A stretch of DNA of 64,000 nt from Beroe forskalii. Its lineage: Eukaryota > Ctenophora > Nuda > Beroida > Beroidae. The stretch spans positions 186,001-250,000 of the forward strand of contig WFMF01000157.1 in the NCBI GenBank assembly GCA_011033025.1, in the 5' to 3' direction. Numbering within the stretch: the stretch's first letter is position 1; each line of letters opens with the position of its first letter. Shown here piece by piece: positions 10,534 to 57,215 of the stretch. A model generated the notes under the pieces. That model searched no databases. It had not been told where the DNA came from and worked only from the letters and a program-made list of their open reading frames with translations. The position numbers were made by a program, and so were the translations under genes.

Positions 10534-11244
10534 TGTGTATCAGGAAAAGGTCAAAACACCATTACCCATTACTCAGCCGGACCAGACTGCATTGCTACAG
10601 CTGAGTACTGCAGTCTAGGGTGCTGGAAAGACACTAGATACGACAGAGCTATGAGCGAGAGATTGTGGGACTGCTCCTGGTCTGTGGACGCGTGTGGGCG
10701 CTGTGCCCGGGACAAAGGTTTGTTAGAAGTTTTTAGATATTGCAGCGTTCAGAATATCTCAGCAAGTAACCGGGTTATCTCACTGACTCGCTGAAGATGT
10801 TCTCTACCACCATTGCTTATACTTTCTTACTTTGGAAGAACTAATCTATTCTAATATTATCTAATCTAATCTAATCTAATCTAATCTAATCTAATCTTAT
10901 CTAATCTAATCTAATCTAATCTAATCTAATCTAATCTAATCTAATCTTATCTAATCTAATATAATCTAATCTTATCTAATCTAATATAATCTAATCTTAT
11001 CTAATCTAATTTCATCTTTTAATCTAATCTAATCTAATCTAATCTAATCTTATCTAATCTCATCTCAATCCCCCCTTCTCCCGCAGGGTGGAGAGTGTTC
11101 GGGCTGCAGTACAATGGGAAGGAGTGCTGGAGCGCCGCCGACGCTGCAGAGACTTACGATAAGCACGGAGCAAGTGACGAGTGTCTGGACGGAATGGGGA
11201 AATGTGGCGCATCAGCGTCTACCAGATCCGCTACACGTGCACAA
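10534..11244 (+). CDS. WSC-like cysteine-rich domain protein, two exons (partial)
   Basis: Exon A is 10534-10717, after a pyrimidine-rich CAG acceptor and ending GACAAAG|GT. Exon B is 11087-11244, after CCGCAG. The phase 1 junction joins ARDKG to WRVFGLQYNGKECW. The protein has LGCWKDTRYDRAM, a C..C pair, FGLQYNGKECW and DECLDGMG, matching the layout of WSC-like extracellular domains (GC-x-D, then FGLQ..G.C). A related exon lies on the minus strand at 32415-32570. Near 11194 the frame slips. One more G in the GGGG run would restore the conserved WRISVYQIRY segment, so this is either a base-call error or a disabling frameshift. No downstream exon was found. The intron holds a (CTAAT)n array. 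The 3' end of exon B merges into a 22-bp minisatellite. Confidence 0.65.
10838..11066. repeat. (CTAAT)n pentanucleotide microsatellite in the intron
   Basis: More than 35 near-perfect repeats of CTAAT/TAATC with occasional CTTAT variants. The array lies inside the intron of the WSC-like gene, ending about 20 bp before the exon B acceptor. Confidence 0.95.
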
Positions 11245-11606
11245 GTAGGTGATGGCACGTGCACAAGTAGGTGATAACACGTGCACAAGTGGGTGATGAC
11301 ACGTGCACAAGTAGGCGATTACACGTGCACAAGTGGGTGATGACACGTGCACAAGGAGGTGATGACACGTGCACAAGTAGGTGATAACACGTGCACAAGT
11401 TGGTGATGACATGTGCACAAGTAGGTGATGACACGTGCACAAGTAGGTGATGACATGTGCACAAGTGGGTGATGAGTGATGAAACGTGCACAAGTAGGTG
11501 ATGACACGTGCACAAGAAGGTGATGACACGTGCACAAGTAGGTGATGAAACGTGCACAAGTTGGTGATGGCATATGCACAAGTAGGTGATGACATGTGCA
11601 CAAGTA
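11232..11606. repeat. 22-bp minisatellite starting at exon B end
   Basis: About 16 units of CACGTGCACAAGTAGGTGAT plus two bases. The first unit is the last coding bases of exon B (ACACGTGCACAA) plus the presumed donor GTAGGT at 11245. Each unit therefore repeats an exon/intron-like junction. Variants GTGGGT and GTTGGT occur. The open frames on the minus strand are artefacts of the repeat. Confidence 0.9.
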
Positions 11607-11654
11607 AGTATTTGCGAATTTGGAAATGGGTGCACATACACACGCACACACTGG

Positions 11655-11815
11655 GTAATTTATACGTGCACACTGTGTAATTTACACGTGCATACTGTGT
11701 AATTTACACGTGCATACTGTGTAATTTACACGTGCATACTGTGTAATTTACACGTGCATACTGGGTAATTTACACGTGCACAGTGGTTAATTTACAAGTG
11801 CACACTGGGCAATTC
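11655..11815. repeat. Second 22-bp array, CACGTGCATACTGTGTAATT
   Basis: Seven or so units with the same 22-bp period as the array just upstream. They share the CACGTGCA core but carry a different second half (TACTGTGTAATTTA). The common period and core suggest one array gave rise to the other. Confidence 0.85.
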
Positions 11816-18750: not shown

Positions 18751-21700
18751 ATGAATTCCACCCCCTTGCACTATTTAATGTTGCTCGCCACCGTGACCAT
18801 ATCCAAACAGGAACTCAGGAACTTGCCGACAACAACAGGAAAAATACCTCTCAAGGAAATGTTAGCATCAGAATGGTATTCAAAATCGAACCACACTTGG
18901 ATTTTCAGTCCTAAAGAGCAGCCACTAGTAGGGACATCTGTGGTACTCTACATAAATGCAGACCCAAACAATCTATGCCCTAGCTATGTGTTTGAACTGG
19001 TTGATACATCAGAACTGGTGATATTTCAGCTCAACACTCATTCTCAAATCCAGTTCACCGAAACAAGAAGTTTGCAATTTATAGCAGATTCCCAGCTCAA
19101 TGATTTGAACGATGGACATTGGTTGAGCCTTTCGAATAGTCATGTGCAGTTTCATTACCAATTCTGGGGATCAAAATACAAGATGGAAATTGTTGTCAAC
19201 ACTCAGTTTTATGAAATAAGAATAAACGATGTGTTAGTTGAAGCTTCACGATTCAAAATTAATTGGCAGAGACTGTTGAATTTCCAGTACTATAAAATGC
19301 ACGCAACAGAAGAAAGCGAAAACTCCTGCATTGATATTGATTCGTCCTATGTTCACCATCCATCTGAAACAGGTTTGAAAGTTTTAAGAAAAGTCAGAAA
19401 GGAAGAGACCTCTCCAGTTTTCATTATTTGCAAGGGCGGGGATTGAAGAAGTTAGCCAGTTCAGACATGGTCAAATAACAGAATATGGAAATCTGACATA
19501 GTCATAGTTTCATTCTAAACGTGACATAAACTTCTTTTACATGATAATATATTGTAATTATTGAATATTTGAAAATAATGCCAATTCAAGCATAATATAA
19601 TTTAATACTAATCACATAATATAATTCCTTTTTCAGCAATATGCAACCCTCTCAAACTAGAATATGGGTCAGTTTCACCTGCTGGCTACATCCCAGAGGG
19701 AGTAGCTGTCACACAGTCATGTGACTTTGGGTACACGCTATCTGGGGAGTGGTTTGCAGTCTGTGATGAGGGAGACACCTACTACAACGTCTCGTCATGT
19801 GTTCCTTTAAAGAGAGGTACAGATCGTCTAAAGAGTAAAGATCTCAATTAACAATATTAAAACACTTGGTCTGATATAAACTAAGATATCTAATATGAAT
19901 ACCGTCAGAGGTGTCTAGATAAAACGTCTAGATACTAAAAGATAAAGCTTCATCTCGTCACCAGCTCACCACTGACTCTTTGGCACCTCTCTTATTCGAA
20001 TCCCAGTGTATTCGAATACATCTCCCTCTCCTTATGTGATCTCATAAGCACTTGATCTCTCTTCGCTTTCAGCTGGCAATGATTGTCATATGATATTAGA
20101 AAGCTCCAATGAACGAGAAACCTGTTTTTGGTCAAATGTGATCATGACTATCAGTGTGATGATGCCTCAAACTTAGTCCTTAATAATAATGCCCGAAATA
20201 TCCTGAATGTTTCATTAATTTTTTTACACTAAGTTTCATGTCATTTTCTTATTTTCAGGACGGAGAAAGAGGTTCAGTGAATTCGAAAAAACCAACATTT
20301 TCGAACACCTAGAAGTCTGTACCAAAGATAACATGTATCTCACAGATAAACGACTGGATATCTCTTCGATCTTTTACCTGAACTTGAAATTCAGTGGAAT
20401 TTATGAGCACAATTGCAGAGTGAGTTTCAACATAATCGATGAAAGTACGATGTATCATTTAGACTTCAGGTTGAATTGGGACGACCACAGCTACCGAAAG
20501 GTTATTCAGAATTCCAAATGGAATGGCTATTGGGGCTACATCTATGATCAATCAGACACGGATCTGCCAGACTTCAAACTAGACAACGATGTGTACATCG
20601 TGATAACCCACGACAACTATGACATAACAATCAATGGTGTTGATCTGGAGAATAAGTTTCCAGTGGATCTAGATAGGTTACATAACTTCCGGGGCATTTG
20701 CATCTACACTAAGGGATCGTGTGCACACATTGATCTACAAAACAGCTACATGTCGGATGGAGGTTTGTCACAGTAAGGGTTTATAATTGACCTTTCAATA
20801 AAATCTCAATTCCTCTGTCTTTCTATAACTTAATTTTGCAATTAGAACATCTTTAAAATACGAATACCTTATTGGACATAGGTGTACAGGGTTGGTAATA
20901 AGTCAGCACCCCCCCCCCCCTCTGCAGCCAAAACCATAGAAGTTGAAAACAAATCATTTGGTACAGTTTTAGATTGATCTATTGCGATTGAATTTGAGTG
21001 ATAAAAATCAGTCTCTAAGTGCAGAATATTTTATGAAGGAGCAATTTGGAACTTACCCAACAATAATTGCTTCAATATGCAGGGTTGGTATGGAGCCTGA
21101 GTCCCTGCCTCCAGCCAAAACAGTTAAAGATAGAGACTTCTCCTTTTAAATTTATTCAAGGCCATCTATTAGTGAAAGAAAAATGTGGTCACATCACCGG
21201 AAAAGAAAAATAATTGTGAAGGAGCACCTTTGAAAAGTGTCTTATTCGCCAACAACATAAATTTTTATCACAAATCACATACGGACACAAATTTTATAGA
21301 ATGTATGTCAAAAAATTCATTAAAAGCCAAAAAAGAGGCTGAAAAATGCCCAAAATAAGCAAAATTCATTGTTTTTGGCCACTTTCCAAATTGCTCCTTC
21401 ATAAAATATTTTGCTTTAGGAGGATCATTTTTCAAACTTAAATCCAATCAGAATGTATCAAAGTAAAACTGTACCAAAGGAATAATTACCAACTTTTATG
21501 GTTTTGGCTGAACAAGGGGGGTGCCGACTTATTATCAACCCTGTACAGCCAAGAAATACACGTGGAATCGATATACAATAAAAAAGTAAAAATTATGCGC
21601 CTTTACAAGATGCAGAAAGTGCCAAAGAGCAATTTCTAAAATCTAAATCGATTGCAGGAGGATATTCCTTCCACTTGGTGGACGGAGAAGGGAAAAAGGT

Positions 21701-24700
21701 GGAGCTTGGAGAGACTTCTGGACTGATCATAGCAAGAAGACTTGGTTACCCTAAGGTAATCAATCATATGCAATCCAATAACTACAGGTAGTGTTTGAAA
21801 AGCATCATAGACAGATTGTCGATTTACTCAAGATAAATAACAGTTCTCCCCTCCTCTATTGTGAATCAGGCATTATTTGCACAACCATCACCTATTCAGA
21901 TTTAACAGTATGTGCAAAGGTATTACACACACAACCACCACAAAACACGATCTCTGCTAACCTTTTCTCAATGCCTTTTTGTAAAACAAACACGAGATTG
22001 AGAACAGGAAAAAATCTAAAGATGATCAAATTTTCCAGGAAGGTACCGTATGTGGTCACGAGTTTGACGACGAAAAAGCGAATAGTCTGTGTCACGAGTT
22101 AGGCTTCCCCAGCTGTGAAGAGTGGCATGTAGATGGGTTACCCGTAGAGATGCAGACCCACTATACGGTATTCATTTACCAAGTTTCCTGCCTTGGAAGG
22201 AAGCGTTGTGACTACAGCACGGCATCTGACAGTCAGGAGATCCGTGAGAAGTGTCAAAACTCTAACCATGTGTTCCTGACTTGCAAGTCCAATGAAGGTT
22301 AGTTCATTCGCGTTAAATGAACGTTGCAGTAGTTGATGCAATTCCAATAGAGGTTAGTTGATGCAAGTTCAATGGAGGTTAGTAGATGCAAGCCCAATGA
22401 ACGTAGTTGACGTAAAGTAAAGTTGGTTCATGTAGTTCCAATGATTGTAAGTGGACGCAAGTCCAATGGAGCATTGTTGATGAAAGTCCAATGAGCATTA
22501 GTTTCTCTCTTTAAGGGGAAATAAATGTATTTGAAGAGAGGTTGTCCTCACGATTCAAACAATCTATGGGCATAATGATTCAAAACGTTTCACTTTATAC
22601 TTTTATGGAAAATTATCCATTAAACCTATATCAATACTTCTGTGTTTTTGATAACATTTCAATTCGGTAGTCTGTACTAAATACAAAATATGTACAAGTG
22701 AAAGTGTCAAATCTTTCAGATACCTGTCAGATCAAGGAGTACAATAACTTCATGAAGATCGTGTGCACTGACTTTCGTGGCAACGAATACTTCAAATGCT
22801 TGGACTCTGACGTGTACTACTGGGTGGAAGCCGCCCTGCCTGGCTACAGCAAGTTCAGCAGCCTCTGTGAGGAAGACCCTTACTTTTACCAGGTCTGCGG
22901 GGCCGGGCACACCGAGGACATGACTAGCGGCAGGACAGTAGCAGGGAGTTTCTGCAGCTACTACATATGCGAGGATGAGCACGGCATCTACACTAGCAGC
23001 TACAAGGCTGAGCACACCTACTCGTGCAATGGGAAACAGGAGTGTACCAACACTCAGCTGGACGAGGCAGACTGTGAAGGGAGGGAAGGTGGGCGGCTGA
23101 GTATACCCAACTCCCAGGTTTGCAACGGAGTCTGCAACCTACAGAACTGCGAGGATGAAGCGAAGTGTAATGGACTGACATACGGCACATTCAATGGAAG
23201 ACAGTATAAACCTCCATACCTCTTGCAAGCAGGAGACATGGACTGCTGCTGGAGGGATGACAGCACTCCCACTTGCCAGCACTTCAACCCATTCGAGCAG
23301 AGACACGAAGAATTTCCACTGTTTAACTATACAAGATGTGCCGCATTCTCATTTTCAGCAAGAGCAATGGACGAGGGCCAATATCTGACCAAAGAATTAA
23401 ACCCTTATTGTACTTCCTTTTTGGACCAGACGAACTGCACTGACACTTCCAGAATAGCAATGACATGCGAAGTAATGGGCTATCCCACTACCATATCGAA
23501 GCAAATGATGTGTCATGGGATAGAAAACCTATCCATCTGCAGTGACAGCATTGAGAATGTTTGCTATGAGCTGTCCACCACGTGCAAAGTTCACAAGCAT
23601 CTCATGTGTGACGGTGTTGATGATTGCCAAGATAGAAGTGATGAGTTAAATCATATCTGTCAAAATCTAACACCCGAACCATGTGTTCGAAGGGCAGGAT
23701 TTGGTGATAATGATAATAATAAACCACTCAAGTTTCCACTTGCCTGGCTTCACGATAACGTCATAGATTGCCAGGATGGTATCGATGAAAAGGATGGTAT
23801 CGTTGAAAAGGATGGTGGGATGAAACCTTGGCCTTCTTGCGGCAAAAACAAAACTTTCAGATACGTGTCGGAATATGACCATGTTTGCACGGAAGACCTC
23901 ATCTGCTTACACGACAGTAATACAGAGTTTATCCGATCAGAGGAGCTGTGCGATGGAATAGAAACTTGTGGTAATGAGAACGCAATGTGCCAGGTATCAG
24001 TGGGTTGGGATACCATTTGGAAAAAACAGCAAAAAAACCTAGACGAAGAAAAACACTTGTTTCACTGCTTAAAAGGACTATCTGAGTTACAGAGGCTTAC
24101 GTCTCCTTGTGTACATGCTGCTTTCAGACACAATAAAGAAAATTTATTCGGCATGTCAGAAAAAACGGACCATCTCTTTTTCCCAATGAAAAAACACGAT
24201 TGCAGTCACCTATATGGGGAGTTGTATGTCTACATTGCATGTATGGGACTATGCGAGGGGACTTTAAAGTGCCCATTGACAAAGAAGGTCAGATACGACT
24301 CATGTCCAGGGCAATATTCCCGGAGAATTTTTACCACACAAAACCAACAGGATTTGGTTTTCTTGTTGAAGTCCAGAGGGTCCTATCATAGTGATGTGTT
24401 TGTATGTGATAACAACAGATGTATTGATTACAGCCAAGTTTGTGACTTAGTTGATGACTGCGGTGACAATAGCGATGAAATCAACTGTGCCAATTTTTTT
24501 CGATGTAAAAACAGTCATGAAACGCTGGTTTGGACGAGAGTTTGTGACGGTTTTATAGATTGCCGAGACATGTCGGATGAGTGTAACAGTCGATGCAGCA
24601 GAGAGATAATTAATAACCTGCCACTGACAGTATCTGCATGGATCATAGGAATTTTAGCTGTGATTTTCAACTTGGTAATGATAATTGATAACGTAGCAAA

Positions 24701-25766
24701 GTTGGGAAAGTGCAGAACACCTATGGTTTTGCTGAATAAAATACTCGTCCTATTGATAAGCATTGGCGATTTCTTAGTTGGTGGGTACCTGATAATAATT
24801 TCGTGGACAGATGCTAAGCGAAAAAGCAACTACTGTTCAATCCACAGGGAGTGGATAACCCAACCCTTTTGCTCCGTGCTGGGTGTCCTAAGTACGTTTG
24901 GTTCGCAGATTTCTCTGTTTTCAATGACTGCTCTAAGCTGTGCCAGGTATGTTGGCATACGAAATGCTATGAGTGTGGGTGGTAGTGTTAACAAAAGATC
25001 AGTTGCACTGATATGTGGACTTGTTTTGATGCTAGTTATACTTGCATTAGCAGTGGCTGTAGGACCACTTCTTATCTCACTCGAAGATTTCTTTGTAAAC
25101 GGACTTTACTATGACAAGACCATTCCTTTCTTTGTAGGACTGCCAGATAAGAGTCTTCTTACAACGATCATAGAGGCATACTATGGTAATATCAGAGGGA
25201 AGCAGCACATTTCATGGAAGAGAATAAGAGACATGATTTCCAAGATGTTCACTGATAACTACTCTGGAATCCGTTCCAAGAGAGTTAATTTTTATGGGAA
25301 TGACCCAGTTTGTTCATTCAAATACTTTGTTCGAGACGACGATCCGCAAAAGTTTTATGTGTGGATGATCTTAGTCATGAACTTCATCTGTTTTTTGGTT
25401 ATTTCATCTCTGTACATTGTCATCACTATCATCTCCATTGGTACATCCAGTGCCCTTGTGTCAAGTGGCCAAAACAAGGGGATTTCAAATAGAAATAAGA
25501 AACTAGATCATGGATCAATTACACCAGCTGGCTACATTCCAGAAGGAGTGGCTGTCACACAGTCATGTGACTTTGGGTACAAGCTATTGGGGGAGTGGCT
25601 TGCAGTTTGTGATGAGGGAGACAGCTACCACGACGTTTCGTCATGTGTACCCTTTGAAGGAGGTACACCAACTACCAAGACCCTCCTTGCTATAAAACTA
25701 AGAACTAAGTTTGCGATAATTTATGGTTTTTTTCCCATTTCCAATCACCGTTTTCGTTTTACGTAA
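18751..25766 (+). CDS. Galectin-like/sushi/SRCR-like/LDLa serpentine receptor, truncated after TM5
   Basis: Six exons with fully phase-compatible junctions: 18751-19372, 19637-19816, 20259-20762, 21658-21755, 22039-22297 and 22720-25766, giving about 1569 residues. Exons 1 and 3 each encode a beta-sandwich resembling galectin (FEIRINDVLVEASRFKIN-like; DNYDITINGVDL...LDRLHNF). Exon 2 is a sushi/CCP domain with four cysteines. Exons 4-5 form an atypical SRCR domain (GTVCGHEFDDEKANSLCHEL). Exon 6 is long and intronless. It has a cysteine-rich ectodomain with LDLa repeats (CDGVDDCQDRSDE, CDLVDDCGDNSDE, CDGFIDCRDMSDE). Five hydrophobic segments follow at roughly exon-frame residues 640-665, 675-702, 724-750, 767-795 and 885-915, with CARY in place of DRY after TM3. 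TM6 and TM7 are absent: after TM5 the frame enters a second sushi domain. LDLa-bearing receptors include the relaxin/GRL101 type, but no leucine-rich repeats are seen here. The start follows a CAG, so a 5' exon may exist. Intron 3 carries a MITE. Confidence 0.75.
20887..21543. mobile_element. Tc1/mariner-like MITE in receptor intron 3
   Basis: Inverted termini of about 30 bp (CAGGGTTGGTAATAAGTC at the left; complement with GACTTATTATCAACCCTG at the right) are flanked by TA on both sides (20885-20886, 21544-21545). Length is 657 bp with no ORF. An internal repeat of the CAGGGTTGGTA motif lies near 21080. It is inserted between the second galectin-like exon and the first SRCR exon. Confidence 0.75.
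22283..22500. repeat. Degenerate 25-bp minisatellite at SRCR exon 5 donor
   Basis: Starts at the exon 5 end (CAAGTCCAATGAAG|GTTAGTT) and repeats imperfectly downstream as GAGGTTAGTTGATGCAAGTT and related variants up to about 22500. It is the decayed counterpart of the regular array at 27437-27990. Confidence 0.75.
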
Positions 25767-27450
25767 GACACCGAGGAAGAGTTACGAGAAATGGTGACTA
25801 GTAATAGTAAGAAGCTTGTGAGAATATCACCTTAATCTATAGTGTTGAATCTAGTGGCCTTATTAGCTTTTATTACGTCGTCCTTTTTTAACTGGTCCTA
25901 TGGACAAAAAATCGAATCATTTTTGAGCCAATTTAACAGACGCCTAGGACATTTTTTCAAAACAGATGCCAGATTTAGGATTTTATGCTCTGAAGTAGCT
26001 ACTAAAAACCTTTCATCCCAGACTTCAAACTAGACAACGATGTGTACATCGTGATAACCCACGACAACTATGATATCATTATAAATGGTGTGAACCTGCA
26101 GAATAAGTTTCCAGTAGATCTAGATAGGTTGCATAACTTCCGAGGCATTTGCATCTACACTGAGGGATCGTGTGCACACATTGATGTACAAAACAGCTAC
26201 ATGTCCGATGGAGGTTGGTTACAGTGAGGGTTATCGAACTTTCATTAAGTCTCAATTGCTCTGCCAATCTTTAAAATAAGAATAATGACACTGGAAAGCG
26301 TAGTGCAGCCAGAAATGCACATTTAATCGATAAAAAGAACTATGTGCCTTTACAAGGCACAATTGCCAAATTTGAATTGATTGCAGGAGGATATACCTTT
26401 CACCTGGTCGATGGAGAAGGGAAAAAGGTGGAGCTTGGACAGACCTCTGGGTTGATCATAGCAAGAAGAATTGGTTACCCTAAGGTAATCAATTATTAGA
26501 AATCCAAGGTAGTACTTATTGGAAATGCATCACAGAAAGATGTCATATTGTACACTTATTCAAGATAAATAAGTAAATAACAGTTCTCCCTCTTTTATTG
26601 TGAATTAGGCAGTATCTCCACAACCTGGTCTTCTTTTATATAAAACTTCTCTAACTCTATTGTACAGCTATAGAATTGAAAATAAATTCCAAAAAACTGT
26701 CATATCTCCAAAAATTGTGGCCAGTATGTTATGACCATCTTAGCATGGGACTTCACACCCCCCCCCTTGTTTTCAAAAGGCCCCTTCTAGAAAAATCTTA
26801 GGGGGGGCTAGGCCCTGTCTAGGGTTTTTCTCTAAAATTTGAACATCAAAAGGAAGTTGAAATCAAGTTCAGTCAGAGAGAAATTTTTCTTGAAATTCAC
26901 CTTTTTAAAAGTTTTAAAGTCGAAAATCTCATGTAATAAAACATGATATTACATGAGCACAACTTCGTAATTTTTCATCCAATTTTGGCAAACAAATACA
27001 CTAATTAATCATCAGCTCGTGGAGACAAATCGACAGGGCTACGTTAAAAATCACACGAAATGGACTAGAGAACACTGTCAAACTGTTGGTGCACGCCAAG
27101 GCTATCCTTGCCAACTCCCAAATTCTTGTATTCCAAAGTATAAGGCTTGAACCCCCTCCTCCCCTCCCCTCAAATATGACCTATTTTTCAGGAAGGCACC
27201 ATATGTGGTTACAAGTTTGAAGAACAATCAGCGCAAAGCCTGTGTCAGGAGTTAGGCTTTCCTGGCTTTGAAGGCTGGCACGTTAATAGTTTACCAGTAG
27301 AGATGCACACCAACTATACGGTATTCATTTACCAAGTTTCCTGTGATGATCAAGGGCGATGTGATTATAGCACGGTATCTGACAGTCAGGAAATCCGTGA
27401 GAATTGTCACAACTCTAACAATGTGTTCCTGTCTTGCAAGTCCAATGAAG
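25500..27450 (+). pseudogene. Second, partial sushi/galectin/SRCR unit (duplicated ectodomain)
   Basis: Copy of the first unit's exons 2-5. The sushi sequence (25507-25662) lies in frame after TM5. It has lost its acceptor and first cysteine (ICNP-equivalent reads ISNR) but keeps the phase 1 donor G|GTACAC. The galectin-like exon survives only as its last 64 codons (26022-26213), with a substitute CCCAG acceptor of matching phase. The 5' part is replaced by sequence resembling the repeat at about 57890. SRCR exons 26387-26484 and 27192-27450 have exactly the same lengths (98 and 259 bp) and phases as copy 1 and stay open. No second LDLa/7TM exon follows. It may be spliced to the upstream receptor, but these disulfide domains would then sit on the cytoplasmic side of TM5, so a rearranged non-functional unit is more likely. 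Confidence 0.65.
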
Positions 27451-27990
27451 GTTAGTTGATGCAGGTCCAATGAAGGTTAGTTGATACATGTCCAATGAAG
27501 GTTAGTTGATACATGTCCAATGAAGGTTAGTTGATGCATGTCCAATGAAGGTTAGTTGATACATGTCCAATGAAGGTTAGTTGATACATGTCCAATGAAG
27601 GTTAGTTGATACATGTCCAATGAAGGTTAGTTGATTCATGTCCAATGAAGGTTAGTTAATGCAAGTCCAATGAAGGTTAGTTGATACATGTCCAATGAAG
27701 GTTGATGCAAGTCCAATGCAGGTTAGTTGATACATGTCCAATGAAGGTTAGTTGATGCAGGTCCAATGAAGGTTAGTTGATGCATATCCAATGAAGGTTA
27801 GTTGATGCATGTCCAATGAAGGTTAGTTGATACATGTCCAATGAAGGTTAGTTGATGCAAGTCCAATGAAGGTTAGTTGATACATGTCCAATGCAGGTTA
27901 GTTGATACATGTCCAATGAAGGTTAGTTGATGCATGTCCAATGAACGTTAGCTTAGGCATGTCCAATGAAGGTTAGTTGATACACCTGCA
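27437..27990. repeat. 25-bp minisatellite of SRCR exon/donor junctions
   Basis: About 22 units of GTTAGTTGATACATGTCCAA plus TGAAG. The unit contains TCCAATGAAG, the last bases of the SRCR exon ending at 27450, and GTTAGTT, its splice donor. Main variants are GCAAGT, ACATGT and GCAGGT before CCAATG. One unit has lost 6 bp near 27700. Confidence 0.95.
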
Positions 27991-27999
27991 CAATGACTG

Positions 28000-28340
28000 T
28001 TAGTTAAAGCAAGTCCAATATATGTTTGGTGCAATAGTCGCAGGCCATCACGACCCCCAGCAGGGTGTGATGGCAACTCTCCATAGCAAAGTGTTCTGCT
28101 GTAACCCACTCGGCTGAACTACTAGTCAACTAGAACCACTTACCGGGTACAAGGTGGTGCTGCTCTTTCGGGCATCAACTGTGCGGGGGCGACTCTCCGC
28201 AGATATCCTACCTTGATCCCTTGGTAAGTATGGCTGATGAGGCAGGAGGCTATTTCTAACGCTTAAAGCTTTGAGAAAGTTACAGGTGCTGGACATAGTG
28301 AGTAGGTTAACATAGGTAGTTGAAGTTGCTTTCAATGAAG
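28000..28340. other. Unassigned segment between minisatellite and repeat element
   Basis: GC-richer than its surroundings (CATCACGACCCCCAGC, CTCGGCTGAACTACTAG). It has no exon with clear splice sites. A trace of the minisatellite unit (TTTCAATGAAGGTTACTTG) reappears at 28330, suggesting the array once extended this far or that the segment is inserted. Confidence 0.35.
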
Positions 28341-28344
28341 GTTA

Positions 28345-29805
28345 CTTGGGTGTCAATTAGCCACATTAATTCCACGAGCTTGCGAGTGAATTCATGCAAT
28401 AAATGCACGAGCTTGCGAGTGCATTTATTGAGTAATTGCGAGCTTGCGAGTGCAATTACGATGGTAATTTTAACACCCAAGTGTGTATTTACTGTATTAT
28501 TACCCTGCCATATACGCAGCAATCAAAGGAGACGGTTTGAAACTTAGAAACATTTTAATATGAACGAACGTGCGTGTTTGTATTCGAACTCAACGTTTAA
28601 TGAAGAATAGGTACACTATCTCATAATTGAAACAGGCAAAAATTTTGGACAAATTTGCCAGTGATAAATCATCATCGTTTCGGGGTCAATTCAGCAAATG
28701 TATCCAAAAGTCCAAATGATAGAACCAGCGCCCAGCATTGATACATACTGTTAGTGTATAACGTAGTGTATAACGTAGTGTATGTATAATGTATATTATG
28801 TACTTATGTACTTCACAAAGATTTTGGCATGATCTTTCATTGCCATAAAAACATGAATCATTGAAAACATGAATCATTGAAGATACGTACTCAATCGAAA
28901 ACAAAACAATTCACACCACAACCATAAACAACTGACTCTAGAGCTACAATCTTATGCGGATCTCGTATGTGAATATAGTCAGCTAAATCTTTAGAATGTA
29001 TCAAAATGTATGTATTCACTCCTCAAGTTGAACAATCAGTTTTGCGCCATGATCATTATCTTCATCCCGATCTAAATTAAGAAACGAACACTGACAGATA
29101 GAAATGACGGCGCACAGAAATAATGAAAATGAAATTGATAAAACGGAGCAATACACCATACATACGGCGCCACAAGTCTGCGTTATATCTCTAACACTAG
29201 ATAAATAAACATTGAGACAAGGATGGAGTTATCAAGCGCGTCTGGGTGGCGCCATTTAGGTATATACGATAGTACTGTTCCATTTATCTATTTTATCTTT
29301 AATCTTGTGTTTCCCTATTATATCATTTTGATACATCGTATTTTATACATTGTGCTCCTAATTTACTTTATCTTGTGCTACCAAATGTACCATTAAGAAT
29401 ATAACATAGCATATATCGTACCGAACATATTGTGCTCCTTATCGCTATTTTATCTTGTTTTACAGTATATATACGGTTGAGAATAAATTATATCGAATCG
29501 TTTTTATATGGAAAGTGCGATAACAGATATCATGGGAACTTATTATTCTCCTATTTATATCCGCATAGAGATAGCAAATAGGTTAGAACCGTGCGAATGG
29601 CTGTTTTCAGAAAATTTGCAGTAATTCAACAGTAGTAATTCAACAGTTGGGAATAGTAATTCAACACTTGAATAGTAATTCAATAGTTGAGGTATAGTAA
29701 TTACACACTTGACAGTAATTCAACTGCTGGGTACGGTGATATTACATGATTAATATTGCTCAAAAATTCGAAAAGTAATTACACTGCAGGGTAATAATAT
29801 CTGTA
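28345..29805. mobile_element. 1.3-1.5 kb repeat element, copy 2 (inverted)
   Basis: Inverted copy of 12581-13850. The palindromic CGAGCTTGCGAGTG block (28360-28490) comes first, then GACGGTTTGAAACTTAG, the GCGCCACAAGTCTGCG block near 29165 and CAACAGTAGTAATTC units near 29620-29720, ending at CTGCAGGGTAATAATA. Divergence is small, mostly indels. The two copies are about 15 kb apart. Confidence 0.75.
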
Positions 29806-29837
29806 AGTTTGGTTTACTTGTTAGGGTTGCTTTGCTT

Positions 29838-31125
29838 GTATTCCCGCCCTGGCCAGGGCGGTAACCCCCTGCATATCAGAAAAAAAGAAATAGAGAGTCG
29901 GGACCTATCTAGAACGATTCGTCGTAAAATTTTAGGTCTAGAACAACCGTTCTCATAGATACGTGTATACTTAAATCGCGCGCTACAGTAACGTAACTGG
30001 CCAGGGCTATATATGAGAGAATTCGGTGTCACAGTAGTTTAATAAGACATAATAATAATAATATGAAGATAATTTGGGACCCAATTTAAAACGATGAGAT
30101 CTCAAGTTCCACAAATAGTAGAGACACGATCGAGGTCACGTTTTGTAGATCTAAGATGGGAAAATGTAATAGGCTATAAGAGAAGCTCTGGTGACGTCAT
30201 TATGACGTCATCAACTTAGCGAAATTTTACTGCTTTTTTTTGCGAAAATAGGTCGTTTTCGAGCGCTTTTTTCACCAAGAAGGAATGGAGATAGCTTCTT
30301 GATTTTTCCGAATGGGAGTTAGCAAATTTAAAGAGCTTTCAGAAAATCATATGGATTATTGGTCTATCTCGATTCTTCATCGAGATATACGCGATTTTCT
30401 AAGGTGCGGTAAACAATCGATGTCGAAAATTTAGGACAAAACTTAAACGAGTGATATGTCAAGAACTGCGACTTATCTTGAGATTAGACCGGTCAAAGTA
30501 TGTTGTACTAAGGCGGAATTGTCTTATAGGCTATATGTATATGGGAAGTTGGTTTGAGCCTATTTGGGTGCTGTGATGACGTCATCAAAATCGCGTAAAA
30601 CCACTAAAATAGCGTATTTTGCGATGAAACGCTATTATACGCTACTTTGAACATCTCTAACTCAGAGAGTTTTCATCGGAATATGTTAAACTTCGATATT
30701 TTGCTTTTAGACCTCGAGATTTAGCTATAAAACGAGTTTCAAGGTGATCGGTCAAAATATGTCGTCATGCGAAGCCTCTAAATATTGAGCCGCAAAATGG
30801 TTGAAATTATGTTAATGATGAAAAATTGTACTTTAGCCTTATTCTGTGATACGATGACGAACTAATAATGGTTTCCTCATGTCTCTCAGTGACTAAATGT
30901 GGGAAATATACGATGAAATAGTGAATCACGTGAGTTCACGCAGACGTTTTGTAGAAATTAGGGGATTTAAAGAAATTGATATTTACACGCGATTTTCGAC
31001 TTGATTACGTTGAAATGAGTTCAAATACGACTAATTCACATGAAATTAGATCTGGGTGCTACATTTCAGCACGTGAGTTCACGTGGACGATTTGTAGAAA
31101 TTAGGAAATTGGTCGGTTCTAGTAA
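29838..31125. repeat. Left arm of a long inverted repeat
   Basis: 29838-30050 (CCCGCCCTGGCCAGGGCGG onward) is inverted at 41097-41311. 30043-31125 (from an AATAATAATA run through TGACGTCATTATGACGTCAT) is inverted at 35460-36540. The two stretches are contiguous here. In the right arm they are separated by the Helitron-like array and other sequence. No ORF was recognised in the arm. Confidence 0.85.
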
Positions 31126-36548: not shown

Positions 36549-39500
36549 TAGTCGGTTCCCGTCCTACGGACGGCGAATGATGGCAGCCGCATGAGCTAAC
36601 GGCCACATGTCCCTTTGACAGTGATTTGACCGATGGAGTTTGGAGGGGAAATTCGAAACTTTAATTTCTGCGAAAAAAAAGCTTCCCACGCCGCCAACGG
36701 TAACCCAATATTGCCGACAATATTTTCAAAGCCTTTACTCATCATAAGAAACTCCATAGCGAAGGAATTTTGAAAAAATTCGAAAATCTATTTTTCCGAA
36801 AAAAGGGCGTGGCCTCCCACGCCCCTTAGGGTGACCCAATAATTCGGACAAAATTCTCAAAACTTTTATTCATCATAAGCAACTTGATGGCGAAGGAATT
36901 TTGAAAAAATTCGAAAGTTTAATTTTTGCGAAAAAAAGGGCGTGGCCTCCCACGCTCCTCAGAGTGACCCAATAATTCGGACAAAATTCTCAAAATTTTA
37001 TTCATCATAAGCAACTCAATGGCGAAGGAATTTTGAAAAAATTCGAAAGTTTAATTTTGCGAAAAAGGGCGTGGCCCCACGCCCCTCAGGGTGACCCAAT
37101 AATTCGGACAAAATTCTCAAAATTTTTATTCATCATAAGCAACTCGATGGCGAAAGAATTTTGGAAAAATTCGAAACTTTAATTTTTGCGAATAAAAGGG
37201 CGTGGCCCACCACGCCCCTCAGGGTGGCCGAAAAAATCTCATATTATTTTTCTGATTTATTATAAAGTTTTTGCAACACGATGAAAAAAAATTTCGTTGC
37301 CTACTTGAAAACGAATCGCCATAAATAAATAAATATATATATATTAACAACACGCATTATATATAGTAAGATTATTATTACTAGTCGGTTCCCGTCCTAC
37401 GGACGGCGAATGATGGCAGCCGCATGAGCTAACGGCCACATGTCCCTTTGACAGTGATTTGACCGTGCGAGTTTGGAGGGGAAATTCAAAACCTTAATTT
37501 CTGCGAAAAAAGCTTCCCACGCCCCCAACGGTAACCCAATGTTGCCGAAAATATTCTCAAAACCTTTACTCATCATAAGCAACTCCATAGCGAAAATCTA
37601 TTTTTTTTTCGAAAAAAGGGCGTGGCCTCCCACGCCCCTTAGGGTGACCCAATAATTCGGAAAAATTATCAAAACTTTATTCATCATAAGCAACTTGATG
37701 GCGAAGGAATTTTGAAAAATTCGAAAGTTGAATTTTGCGAAAAAAAGGGCGTGGCCTCCCAAGCTCCTCAGAGTGGCCCAATAATTCGACAAAATTCTCA
37801 AAATTATTAATCATCATAAGCAACTCAATGGCGAAAGAATTTTGAAAATATTCGAAAGTTTAATTTTTGCGAAAAAAAGGGCGTGGCCCTCCACACCCCT
37901 CAGGGTGACCCAATAATTCGGACAAAATTCTCAAAATTTATATTCATCATAAGCAACTCGATGGCGATGGAATTTTGAAAAAATTCGAAAGTTTAATTTT
38001 TGCGGAAAAAAAGGGCGTGGCCCCCATGCCCCTCAGGGTGGCCGAAAAAATGTCGTATTATTTTTCTGATTTATTGTAACTTTCTTACAACACGATTAAA
38101 AGATAATTTTGATGCTAACTTGAAAACGAATCGCCATAAATAAATAAATATATATATATTAACAACACGCATTATATATAGTAAGATTACTAGTCGGTTC
38201 CCGTCCTACGGACGGCGAATGATGGCAGCCGCATGAGCTAACGGCCACATGTCCCTTTGACAGTGATTTGACCGTGCGAGTTTGGAGGGGAAATTCAAAA
38301 CCTTAATTTCTGCGAAAAAAGCTTCCCACGCCCCCAACGGTAACCCAATGTTGCCGAAAATATTCTCAAAACCTTTACTCATCATAAGCAACTCCATAGC
38401 GAAAATCTATTTTTTTTTTCGAAAAAAGGGCGTGGCCTCCCACGCCCCTTAGGGTGACCCAATAATTCGGAAAAAATTATCAAAACTTTTATTCATCATA
38501 AGCAACTTGATGGCGAAGGAATTTTGAAAAAATTCGAAAGTTGAATTTTTGCGAAAAAAAGGGCGTGGCCTCCCAAGCTCCTCAGAGTGGCCCAATAATT
38601 CGGACAAAATTCTCAAAATTATTAATCATCATAAGCAACTTAATGGCGAAAGAATTTTGAAAATATTCGAAAGTTTAATTTTTTGCGAAAAAAGGGCGTG
38701 GCCCTCCACACCCCTCAGGGTGACCCAATAATTCGGACAAAATTCTCAAAATTTATATTCATCATAAGCAACTCGATGGCGATGGAATTTTGAAAAATTC
38801 GAAAGTTTAATTTTTGCGGAAAAAAAGGGCGTGGCCCCATGCCCCTCAGGGTGGCCGAAAAATGTCGTATTATTTTTCTGATTTATTGTAACTTTCTTAC
38901 AACACGATTAAAAGATAATTTTGATGCTAACTTGAAAACGAATCGCCATAAATAAATAAATATATATATATTAACAACACGCATTATATATAGTAAGATT
39001 ATTACTAGTCGGTTCCCGTCCTACGGACGGCGAATGATGGCAGCCGCATGAGCTAACGGCCACATGTCCCTTTGACAGTGATTTGACCGTGCGAGTTTGG
39101 AGGGGAAATTCAAAACCTTAATTTCTGCGAAAAAAAGCTTCCCACGCCCCCAACGGTAACCCAATGTTGCCGACAATATTCTCAAAACCTTTACTCATCA
39201 TAAGCAACTCCATAGCGAAAATCTATTTTTTTTTCGAAAAAGGGCGTGGCCTCCCACGCCCCTTAGGGTGACCTAATAATTCGGAAAAATTATCAAAACT
39301 TTTATTCATCATAAGCAACTTGATGGCGAAGGAATTTTGAAAAATTCGAAAGTTGAATTTTGCGAAAAAGGGCGTGGCCTCCCAAGCTCCTCAGAGTGGC
39401 CCAATAATTCGGACAAAATTCTCAAAATTATTAATCATCATAAGCAACTCAATGGCGAAAGAATTTTGAAAATATTCGAAAGTTTAATTTTTGCGAAAAA

Positions 39501-39806
39501 AAGGGCGTGGCCCTCCACACCCCTCAGGGTGACCCAATAATTCGGACAAAATTTCAAAATTTATATTCATCATAAGCAACTCGATGGCGATGGAATTTTG
39601 AAAAATTCGAAAGTTTAATTTTTGCGGAAAAAAGGGCGTGGCCCCATGCCCTCAGGGTGGCCGAAAAATGTCGTATTATTTTTCTGATTTATTGTAACTT
39701 TCTTACAACACGATTAAAAGATAATTTTGATGCTAACTTGAAAACGAATCGCCATAAATAAATAAATATATATATATTAACAACACGCATTATATATAGT
39801 AAGATA
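36549..39806 (-). mobile_element. Tandem array of four Helitron-like elements
   Basis: Four direct units begin at 36549, 37382, 38191 and 39006 (about 833, 809, 815 and 800 bp). Read on the minus strand, each unit starts TCTTACTATATATAATGCG after an A. Each ends with hairpin CCGTCCGTAGGACGG, then GAACCGACTAG followed by T: the 5'-TC, 3'-hairpin-CTRR, A/T-insertion pattern of Helitrons. Units are separated only by short TAATAATAA tracts. Inside each are 4-5 subrepeats of about 135 bp containing AAAAGGGCGTGGCC, GGGTGACCCAATAATTCGG and CATCATAAGCAACT. No Rep/helicase ORF exists, so these are non-autonomous. Confidence 0.75.
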
Positions 39807-55663: not shown

Positions 55664-57215
55664 ATGGGGTTGGCGTTTGCTATCATTCACTGGATAGCCT
55701 TCATACTTCAGCTGATATTCGCAACAGTTTGTATTGGTAAGTGAAGCGGTAATTGATATGAAATACAGTGCCAACCCCACCCCTGATTGATTACTCTTAC
55801 TTTCAAATATTAATTAAACTCAGTGAATTTTAATTGTGCCGCCGGGCTAGTTAAGTACCCCCACCTTAATTCTGTCTGATCTGCTACATAATATTTGTTT
55901 TCATTTGACTCATCTACCTTACATTTCAGCCTGTGGGTTATTCTACATAACGGAAGTGATAGAAGACTACACAGTCATCACGAGACATGTATTCAAATGG
56001 AGTAACATTGTGAGTAACAAATCAACTACAGACGTTGCCATCTCAGTAACACATTGATACGTTACTTGATATTATGACATATAGATTGTTTTCTCATCTT
56101 CTTGTAGATAGCTCTATTCCCGCCTATACAAGTATAAGAAATAATAGAAACTTAATACCAATCTCGAATAGTATAGATAGAGAGTAGATATGTTGCTCTA
56201 CTTTCTCTAGCTCTTTCTAAGAGCCCATTTCTTGTACAGGCAGTAGCTGTTACCCATGTGGTACTTTACTTATTGGAGGACACCTCTCTACTTGATCTAG
56301 CTGTTGGGTTGTTGGTGTGTGGTGCGGCGTGGTTTGTACTCCAACAGTTCCCAAACATTGACATGTTCTCTCCTTCCTTCCTTCTTCTCATGTGTAAGTC
56401 AGTAGATAGTGTGTAAGTCACTAGTTGAGTTATTGTGTGAGTCAGTAGTTGAGTAAGTGTGTAGGTCGTTAGTTGAGTAAGTGTGTAAGTCAGTAGTTGA
56501 GTTATTGTGTGAGTCAGTAGTTGAGTTTGTGTGTAGGTCAGTAGTTGAGTTAGTGTATAAGTCAGTAGTCAAGTAAGTGTGTAGGTCAGTAAGTAGTGAA
56601 ATGTGTAAGTCACTAGTGTGTAAGTCAGGTAATGTGCAAGTCATGTCCAATATGTGAGTGTGTCAGTCACCCACCCTTGCTAAGTCCCTCTTCTTTCAGT
56701 TCTGATGGTTGTGAATCACTTCGTTGCGTACCAATTCTTCAGAACCAGATACCTATCTTTTTCACAGGTTAGTTATACAATATCCGCCCTAGTCCCACGA
56801 TTAGTAAGTACTCCGTAAGGCGTAGAAATAGGGTATTACAGCGCGAAATACAATTTGTTTTTACTTAACACCGGAGCACCGTGATTGTTATCCAATCAAT
56901 CGGCGGGATTGGTTATCAGAATCCAATCAACGACCAGTATTCGAACTAAATCAACTCCTGGTGTGGCTGAAATCTAATTTCTGCAATGTTTTCAGATAGT
57001 AGCTTATTTCACGATATGTATCTGGTTGGTTCCTCTACAGATGGTTTTAGGTCTGGTAGCTGGGGAGAATATCCTTCCAACTACATTTGACAGTGAGTTA
57101 TCTACGTTTCATTATATGCAAAAACTGGTGTCAAGATCTTGAATAATGGATTTTGATTTTTATAATTTTGTCTCATTGAAAGGTTAAAATGTCATTCATT
57201 TCAGGTGCACGCTGA
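55664..57215 (+). CDS. TEX261: TEX261/SVP26 homologue, ER-Golgi membrane protein
   Basis: Six small exons with consistent phases: 55664-55736, 55930-56009, 56240-56393, 56700-56767, 56996-57092 and 57205-57215, giving 160 residues. Donors are GTAAGT, GTGAGT, GTAAGT, GTTAGT and GTGAGT; acceptors are all TTTCAG/TACAG-like. The product is multi-pass: MGLAFAIIHWIAFILQLIF, then ACGLFYITEVIEDYTV, then the diagnostic VVNHFVAYQFFRTRYLSFSQ, VAYFTICIWLVPLQ and AGENILPTTFD. In yeast and animals this family acts in COPII/ER-Golgi membrane protein transport. The protein ends three residues after the LPTTFD motif, about 35 residues shorter than the roughly 196-residue vertebrate form, so the usual basic C-terminal tail is missing. 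Intron 3 begins with a donor-derived minisatellite. Confidence 0.92.
56391..56650. repeat. 24-bp minisatellite of splice-donor copies in TEX261 intron 3
   Basis: About ten units starting TGTGTAAGTCAGTAGTTGAG. The first is the exon 3 end (ATGT) plus the true donor GTAAGT at 56394. Later units keep TGT|GTAAGT, TGT|GTGAGT or TGT|GTAGGT, so each repeat carries a possible 5' splice site. The minus-strand Thr/Asp-rich frame is an artefact. Confidence 0.9.

Follow-up and report, generated by a model that had tools for sequence, protein, structure and literature searches.

Tandem arrays overlapping an exon-intron boundary were found in Beroe forskalii at 17 of the 34 arrays listed from a genome-wide search, and also at SRCR and TEX261 exons. 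These minisatellites probably began as tandem duplications ending just past a 5' splice site, and would be tolerated because splicing would use the first donor. The analysis started from the window, a stretch of 64,000 nucleotides located on contig C200 of an assembly of 216 Mb in 1134 contigs; its genes include SRCR, LDL-receptor class A plus 7TM, MAM and TEX261 genes. An initial annotation had described an array built from the end of an SRCR exon and its donor. This observation was confirmed, and it is wider than had been noted.

The SRCR exon in question belongs to the younger of two paralogous modules (27192..27450, + strand). It was identified by Pfam (PF00530, E 2e-6, 28.4 bits for a cut-off of 26.1), is open for 90 codons up to the junction and ends in phase 1 at the first donor, GTTAGT (27451..27456, +). 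The exon end reads AATGAAG|GTTAGT, in the frame TGC AAG TCC AAT GAA G|GT TAG, and reading through this donor gives GGT TAG, a stop at once.

A minisatellite of about 23 copies (27435..28019, +), defined by TRF, a unit list and donor scores, overlaps the junction. TRF reported a period of 25 bp, 23.5 copies, 89% matches and a score of 893, far above chance, so that the earlier count of about 22 copies with a 25-bp period was right. The unit does hold the exon end and the donor, as had been proposed, with 16 terminal exon bases instead of the "last 10 or so", followed by 9 initial intron bases. AAG|GTTAGT or CAG|GTTAGT occurs at 20 sites within 27451-27972. Among the 20 full units variation is found chiefly in columns 21 and 24, and exon-derived and donor columns are both almost invariant; since the exon-derived columns are as constant as the donor columns, the array is simply young rather than donor-selected.

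The older module also contains an SRCR exon (22039..22297, +; donor at 22298). Pfam matched 22036-22299 with E 1e-6 and 29.4 bits, and both modules thus exceed the cut-off. The decayed array reported at this junction was recovered in the same 25-bp register (22282..22503, +) by TRF, alignment and a fuzzy scan. TRF gave 3.3 copies at 22330-22410, the fuzzy scan four units at 25-bp spacing from 22353 to 22495, and 22282-22503, about nine units long, aligned to stretches of the younger array with mostly 72-75% identity. Of the roughly 8 units after the first, only 3 still have a donor-like site (score above 6). The younger array thus has about 23 copies and the older one about 9 decayed units, but the paralogues are only about 78% identical.

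The source block of the module duplication was placed by blastn at 19654..22503 (+), with its right edge inside the array; pieces of it match pieces of 25500-27657 at 73-87%. No homology was detected beyond the array, between 22504-23300 and 28020-30000, and the duplicated block therefore ends at its array. Judging from the period and edges that the two copies share, the array was most likely present before the module duplicated; the common register and junction, together with the alignment to the older paralogue, lend support to this part of the initial annotation. With the SRCR exon-plus-array DNA as query, the organism's own genome returned only the two copies at this locus.

One exon (20567-20833) was copied only in part, and the 7TM receptor beside the start of the copy gave a partial Pfam match (44-117 of 260). 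The younger module thus resembles an incomplete copy fused to a receptor that the duplication seems to have broken, and whether it serves as a working gene is doubtful. An open frame with LDLa and 7TM receptor sequence (22671-25766) continues directly into the first exon of the duplicated module, at about 25500.

The same arrangement had been claimed for two other genes of the window, and one of these cases stands. TEX261-like exon 3 (56240..56393, +) was assigned through the match of the joined exons to Erv26 (PF04148, E 4e-8) and ends in phase 1 at a donor at 56394, ATG T|GTAAGT. A 24-bp array starts from this donor (56391..56643, +; TRF rows within 56407-56643, donors and unit); its unit has only 3 exon bases (TGT) and an intron part of 21.

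The WSC-like case is the weakest and is doubtful, owing to a weak domain match, an exon end fixed by nothing and an apparent shift of frame. The exon (11089..11244, +; boundary uncertain) matched PF01822 below the cut-off (E 6e-5, 23.7 bits vs 27.8), its reading frame appeared by eye to be shifted shortly before the 22-bp array (11233..11606, +; TRF), and the best-scoring donor lies near the array end, CAA|GTAAGT at 11604. Neither the TEX261 nor the WSC-like case has AG before the donor.

The WSC-like array is directly followed by another array of 22-bp period (11640-11814) whose unit is different; ACACGTGCACA is common to both units (TRF). Elsewhere in the window, TRF located four satellite blocks of 128-133 bp at 36649-39659, with 3.3-4.4 copies each and starts about 0.8-1 kb apart.

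The genome was searched by pattern for three exact copies of AGGTAAGT separated by gaps of 6-36, 37-67, 47-67 or 23-32. The numbers of triples, each against the reversed motif, were 229 vs 48, 308 vs 107, 158 vs 85 and 72 vs 16, respectively. The matches listed were the first 100 of 229, of 308 and of 158, and all 72 for gap 23-32; among them were 34 distinct AGGTAAGT arrays. Reading of the 5' flanks placed 17 of the 34 at a coding exon end, while one spans an acceptor, ten are not at exon ends and six were left without a call. In the 23-32 gap class, for which all 72 matches were listed, 9 of 17 arrays are at exon ends. The arrays at C248:412 kb and C248:400 kb were counted as one, and those of the window stand outside the 17 of 34.

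An enrichment of the motif itself, as judged from triple counts, was rejected: control motifs vary wildly and the counts depend on satellites. Triples of AGGTGAGT (gap 20-50) numbered 1230, vs 2305 for the control; those of GATGAAGT (gap 23-32) numbered 857, from one dispersed satellite, and 25 for its reverse; single AGGTAAGT sites occurred 8045 times genome-wide, vs 10531 for the reverse. On C110, C215, C214 and other contigs, GATGAAGTGTCG units spaced by about 20 bp form a dispersed satellite, in both orientations at some places.

The exon-end arrays lie on C67 (WWE), C209, C248 (NEK-like), C1:1.7536 Mb, C110 (citrate synthase), C285, C358 (kinesin-14), C386 (Sushi), C441 (dynein heavy chain), C481 (PIP5K family, PIKfyve-like), C536, C599 (OCRL-like RhoGAP), C816, C410 (HYDIN-like), C455, C636 (leucine-rich repeat) and C1059. 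Those not at an exon end are on C1:1.948 Mb, C122, C159, C181, C247, C281, C292, C343, C714 and C914, and those without a call on C2, C35, C270, C287, C562 and C658.

In seven of the 17 exon-end cases (C67, C110, C248, C358, C441, C481 and C599) the exon or the joined exons contain a Pfam domain above the cut-off. The other ten calls draw on open reading frames or lower-scoring matches, none above the Pfam cut-off: the Sushi match of C386 (19.9 bits) is just under the cut-off of 20.7, the leucine-rich repeat of C636 is also below it, C410 has no Pfam match above it and was called HYDIN-like by eye, and the open frames of C1:1.7536 Mb and C285 are short (29 and 34 codons). Beyond the domain matches and the NEK1 match, the names NEK, kinesin-14, OCRL, PIKfyve, CPEB and HYDIN are those of the presumed relatives.

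The array that spans an acceptor has a 40-bp unit and lies on the minus strand of C253 (228.6-228.8 kb), at an exon named CPEB-like by eye; junction-spanning arrays are therefore not limited to donors. The proposal that arrays recur at junctions was thus borne out in unrelated genes outside the window, for 17 of the 34 arrays listed, and its wording "exactly at 5' splice sites" was too narrow.

The 3' flanks of 13 arrays were read. In seven of them (C248, C67, C209, C110, C358, C1 and C599) the array gives way to unrepeated intron sequence, then to a separate acceptor and the next exon; for the other six no certain next exon was reached or recognised. The intron of the NEK-like gene consists of about 1 kb of array and an unrepeated remainder of about 50 nt. 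Joining the first donor to the next exon yielded, for citrate synthase (C110), the sequence ...HKTKFWE^TTYEDAMDLIAKLP..., which aligned to solved citrate synthases with no gap at the junction (E 3e-40), and for the NEK-like gene (C248) the sequence ...DLHTWLSA^RKGEHVEEL..., which aligned end to end with NEK1 (E 1e-22). With these alignments, the array reads as intron. The joins of the OCRL-like, TEX261, kinesin and C1 cases are open; the OCRL-like join forms a RhoGAP domain (E 3e-22), that of TEX261 gives the Erv26 match and that of kinesin a microtubule-binding match.

Read-through from the first donor was followed for 20 exon ends, i.e., the 17 together with both SRCR exons and TEX261. A stop was reached within the fetched sequence in 19 of them, in 11 before the end of the next unit. 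Only two of the 17 arrays have a unit length divisible by 3 (p 0.07). Use of the second donor would lead to an in-frame stop or a frameshift at 19 of the 20 exon ends; only kinesin-14 would be clean (36 nt, no stop). Since later donors give stops or frameshifts, the extra copies would hardly serve as a reserve, and production of the conserved proteins, if it occurs, would require frequent use of the first donor. When all of several 5' splice sites are bound, splicing often prefers the intron-proximal site; by this rule the arrays would be harmful.

For each of the 17 arrays we determined the unit length (u), the exon part (p) and the intron part (q); the edges were set partly by eye for C386, C481, C410, C455, C636 and C1059. 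When the by-eye edges were rechecked, those of C481, C410 and C455 agreed, and C386 gave a p of 52 instead of 50. The intron part was 10 nt or less in 11 of the 17 arrays and 16 nt or less in 16, against means of 2.7-3.9 and 5.9-6.8 under a null in which q is drawn uniformly from 3 or 6 up to u-2 (P about 0.0002 or less each). With the three window cases added (n=20), the counts were 13 and 18. The first 13 arrays, combined with five more treated as exon ends (three without a call and two judged not to be at exon ends, all with edges by eye), had q of 10 nt or less in 11 of 18 cases (P 3e-5). TEX261 (q 21) and C285 (q 37) speak against the clustering of edges.

Short words shared by the two edges were picked out by eye in several units: AGTACT (C248), CTTATYTC (C536), CATC (C481), AGT (C386), GTT (C816) and AGG (C110). 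Slippage alone does not account for the clustering of the right edge. A second donor would be more dangerous when it sits in exon context, so that units with a short exon part should be the ones favoured by selection on splicing; the opposite was seen, the exon part exceeding half of the unit in 15 of the 17 arrays, and we think that the edge bias is mutational.

As a comparison, 36 single AGGTAAGT sites were read, 16 in a sampled 204 kb and 20 on contig C1. True donors made up 8 of the 36 when only clear ones were counted and 14 when possible ones were included. Against these two figures, the 17 of 34 listed arrays gave p 0.024 or 0.47, and the 17 of 28 arrays with a call p 0.002 or 0.13; the array flanks read were longer than the single-site flanks, which favours finding exons at arrays. 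Enrichment of arrays at true donors is unproven and hinges on the leniency applied to single sites.

These results bear on the origin of the arrays. Seeding may have been purely random in a minisatellite-rich genome, arrays at exon ends surviving only where exon and donor are intact, so that junctions matter for tolerance only. This is a possible explanation: arrays are dense (a 140-kb sample contains 31 with a period of 14-75 bp and at least three copies, or one every 4.5 kb), their GC content is higher than that of the sample (0.46 vs 0.40), a bias that could favour exon sequence, one array spans an acceptor, and the enrichment at donors is not robust. Random seeding does not, however, predict that the intron part stays within 16 nt for 16 of the 17 arrays, and the comparison of arrays with a call to clear sites is also against it. 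The initial annotation had suggested a mechanism acting on junctions; the clustering of the right edge argues for it, while the dependence of donor enrichment on the criterion (p 0.002 to 0.47) does not. A process anchored at the donor is possible and unproven. We tentatively propose that microhomology to the donor sequence, polymerase pausing or U1 binding during transcription might fix the right edge at +3 to +16 and in this way seed, in many genes, minisatellites that lengthen introns from the 5' end.

Splice sites of dual specificity appear improbable. In this case each AG|GT would serve as both acceptor and donor and the array would be removed stepwise or at random, on the pattern of the tandem array of UBC. 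All units found by pattern hold AG|GT, by construction of the patterns, and the intronic arrays of C343 and C714 have a pyrimidine-rich CAG|GTAAGT. YAG is found, however, at 6 of 18 unit ends vs 8 of 8 picked acceptors of these genes, the mean pyrimidine content is 0.56 at unit ends vs 0.69 at acceptors (p 0.06), and the donors of the TEX261 and WSC-like cases have no AG before them. The arrays at C343:165.9 kb and C714:250.6 kb lie about 190 and 100 nt inside introns, and resemble recursive or dual-specific sites. It is very improbable that the arrays represent introns in the making under the Rogers model, in which an AGGT segment of an exon is duplicated in tandem; AGGT is present in the units, and its first GT serves as the donor, but the seven next exons seen among the 13 fetched 3' flanks have a separate acceptor after an unrepeated tail. 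The other suggestion of the initial annotation, selection that keeps many donors as redundancy, is most unlikely. The SRCR array has kept its 20 donor sites, with donor columns that hardly vary over 20 full units, and this is countered by exon-derived columns that vary as little, by the decay of the older array to 3 donor-like sites in about 8 units, by a younger module that looks like a partial copy, and by the stops or frameshifts that later donors give at 19 of 20 exon ends.

The reading that we prefer, tandem duplication at the donor edge, may be pictured as follows. A duplication would have its right end a few bases past the 5' splice site and its left end inside the exon, and could be produced by slippage or by microhomology repair at short direct repeats, such as AGTACT in the NEK-like gene. 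The block of exon end and donor would then multiply as minisatellites do. Splicing, as suggested by the protein homology, would use the first donor, and later copies would become intron; because the coding exon and the first donor stay intact, the array would be tolerated and presumably neutral. The outcome would be a longer intron, and a repeat able to sit at the edge of a segmental duplication.

Such an edge was seen in the SRCR block, which ends at its array. A larger second copy of the NEK-like array is found at C248:412220-415230; the pair has only one flank in common, the 3' side (83.6% over 687 columns), and not the side of the kinase exon. On this alignment, the C248 array is the edge of that duplication.

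If the first of several identical donors is really used, the arrays would be natural experiments on how the spliceosome chooses among equal 5' splice sites. If the right edge is really fixed at the donor, splicing signals or the splicing machinery would shape DNA mutation, a new link between transcription and the birth of repeats. Either way, the arrays offer a route for intron growth from the 5' end and place repeats at the edges of module duplications.

Tandem arrays have been tied to intron boundaries before. Zhuo and colleagues reportedly described, in 2007, human introns derived from tandem arrays, both boundaries of one intron sharing a repeat. The likeness lies in the tie between arrays and boundaries; in the Beroe cases read, in contrast, only the 5' boundary shares the repeat.

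Intron gain by tandem duplication of AGGT segments is represented, in the accessible part of PMC4974935, by the Rogers model, by ATP2A1 and by the 24-bp duplications of fission yeast (SPOG_01682/SOCG_00815). As in those cases, a short AGGT segment was duplicated several times here and the array is inside an intron. Introns of the Rogers type, as that part of the source presents them, take one repeat as donor and another as acceptor, whereas the acceptor lies outside the repeat in all seven cases with the next exon seen.

The UBC tandem array has dual-specific AGGT sites, and its expansions were suggested to be less harmful since they can be spliced out (PMC10809524, accessible part). AGGT within the unit is common to both systems; here it is met by construction and in SRCR, and not at the TEX261 donor. 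In UBC, according to the text available of the same source, the unit is an entire coding monomer of 228 nt, and it is used as donor or acceptor. The Beroe units, by contrast, are 22-86 bp long and mostly not multiples of 3, and 12 of 18 unit ends have no YAG.

The nearest relatives come from human segmental duplications, in which minisatellites with units of about 30 bp at exon-intron boundaries lengthen introns and change splicing, with 27 intron modifications according to the accessible part of PMC2812944. The Beroe arrays belong with these tandem repeats of exon-intron boundaries, with which they share the position, the lengthening of introns and the tie to segmental duplication. The human cases, as far as that source was available, concern paralogues of recent primate origin that vary in copy number and are supported by RNA; the Beroe arrays are mostly in conserved genes, have units ending at the donor and rows of donors, and were read from DNA alone. 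In the literature searched, no report of donor-anchored arrays with such right-edge clustering was found. Arrays at boundaries are thus already known, and what seems new is their recurrence in conserved genes, such as that of citrate synthase, and the clustering of their right edges just past the donor.
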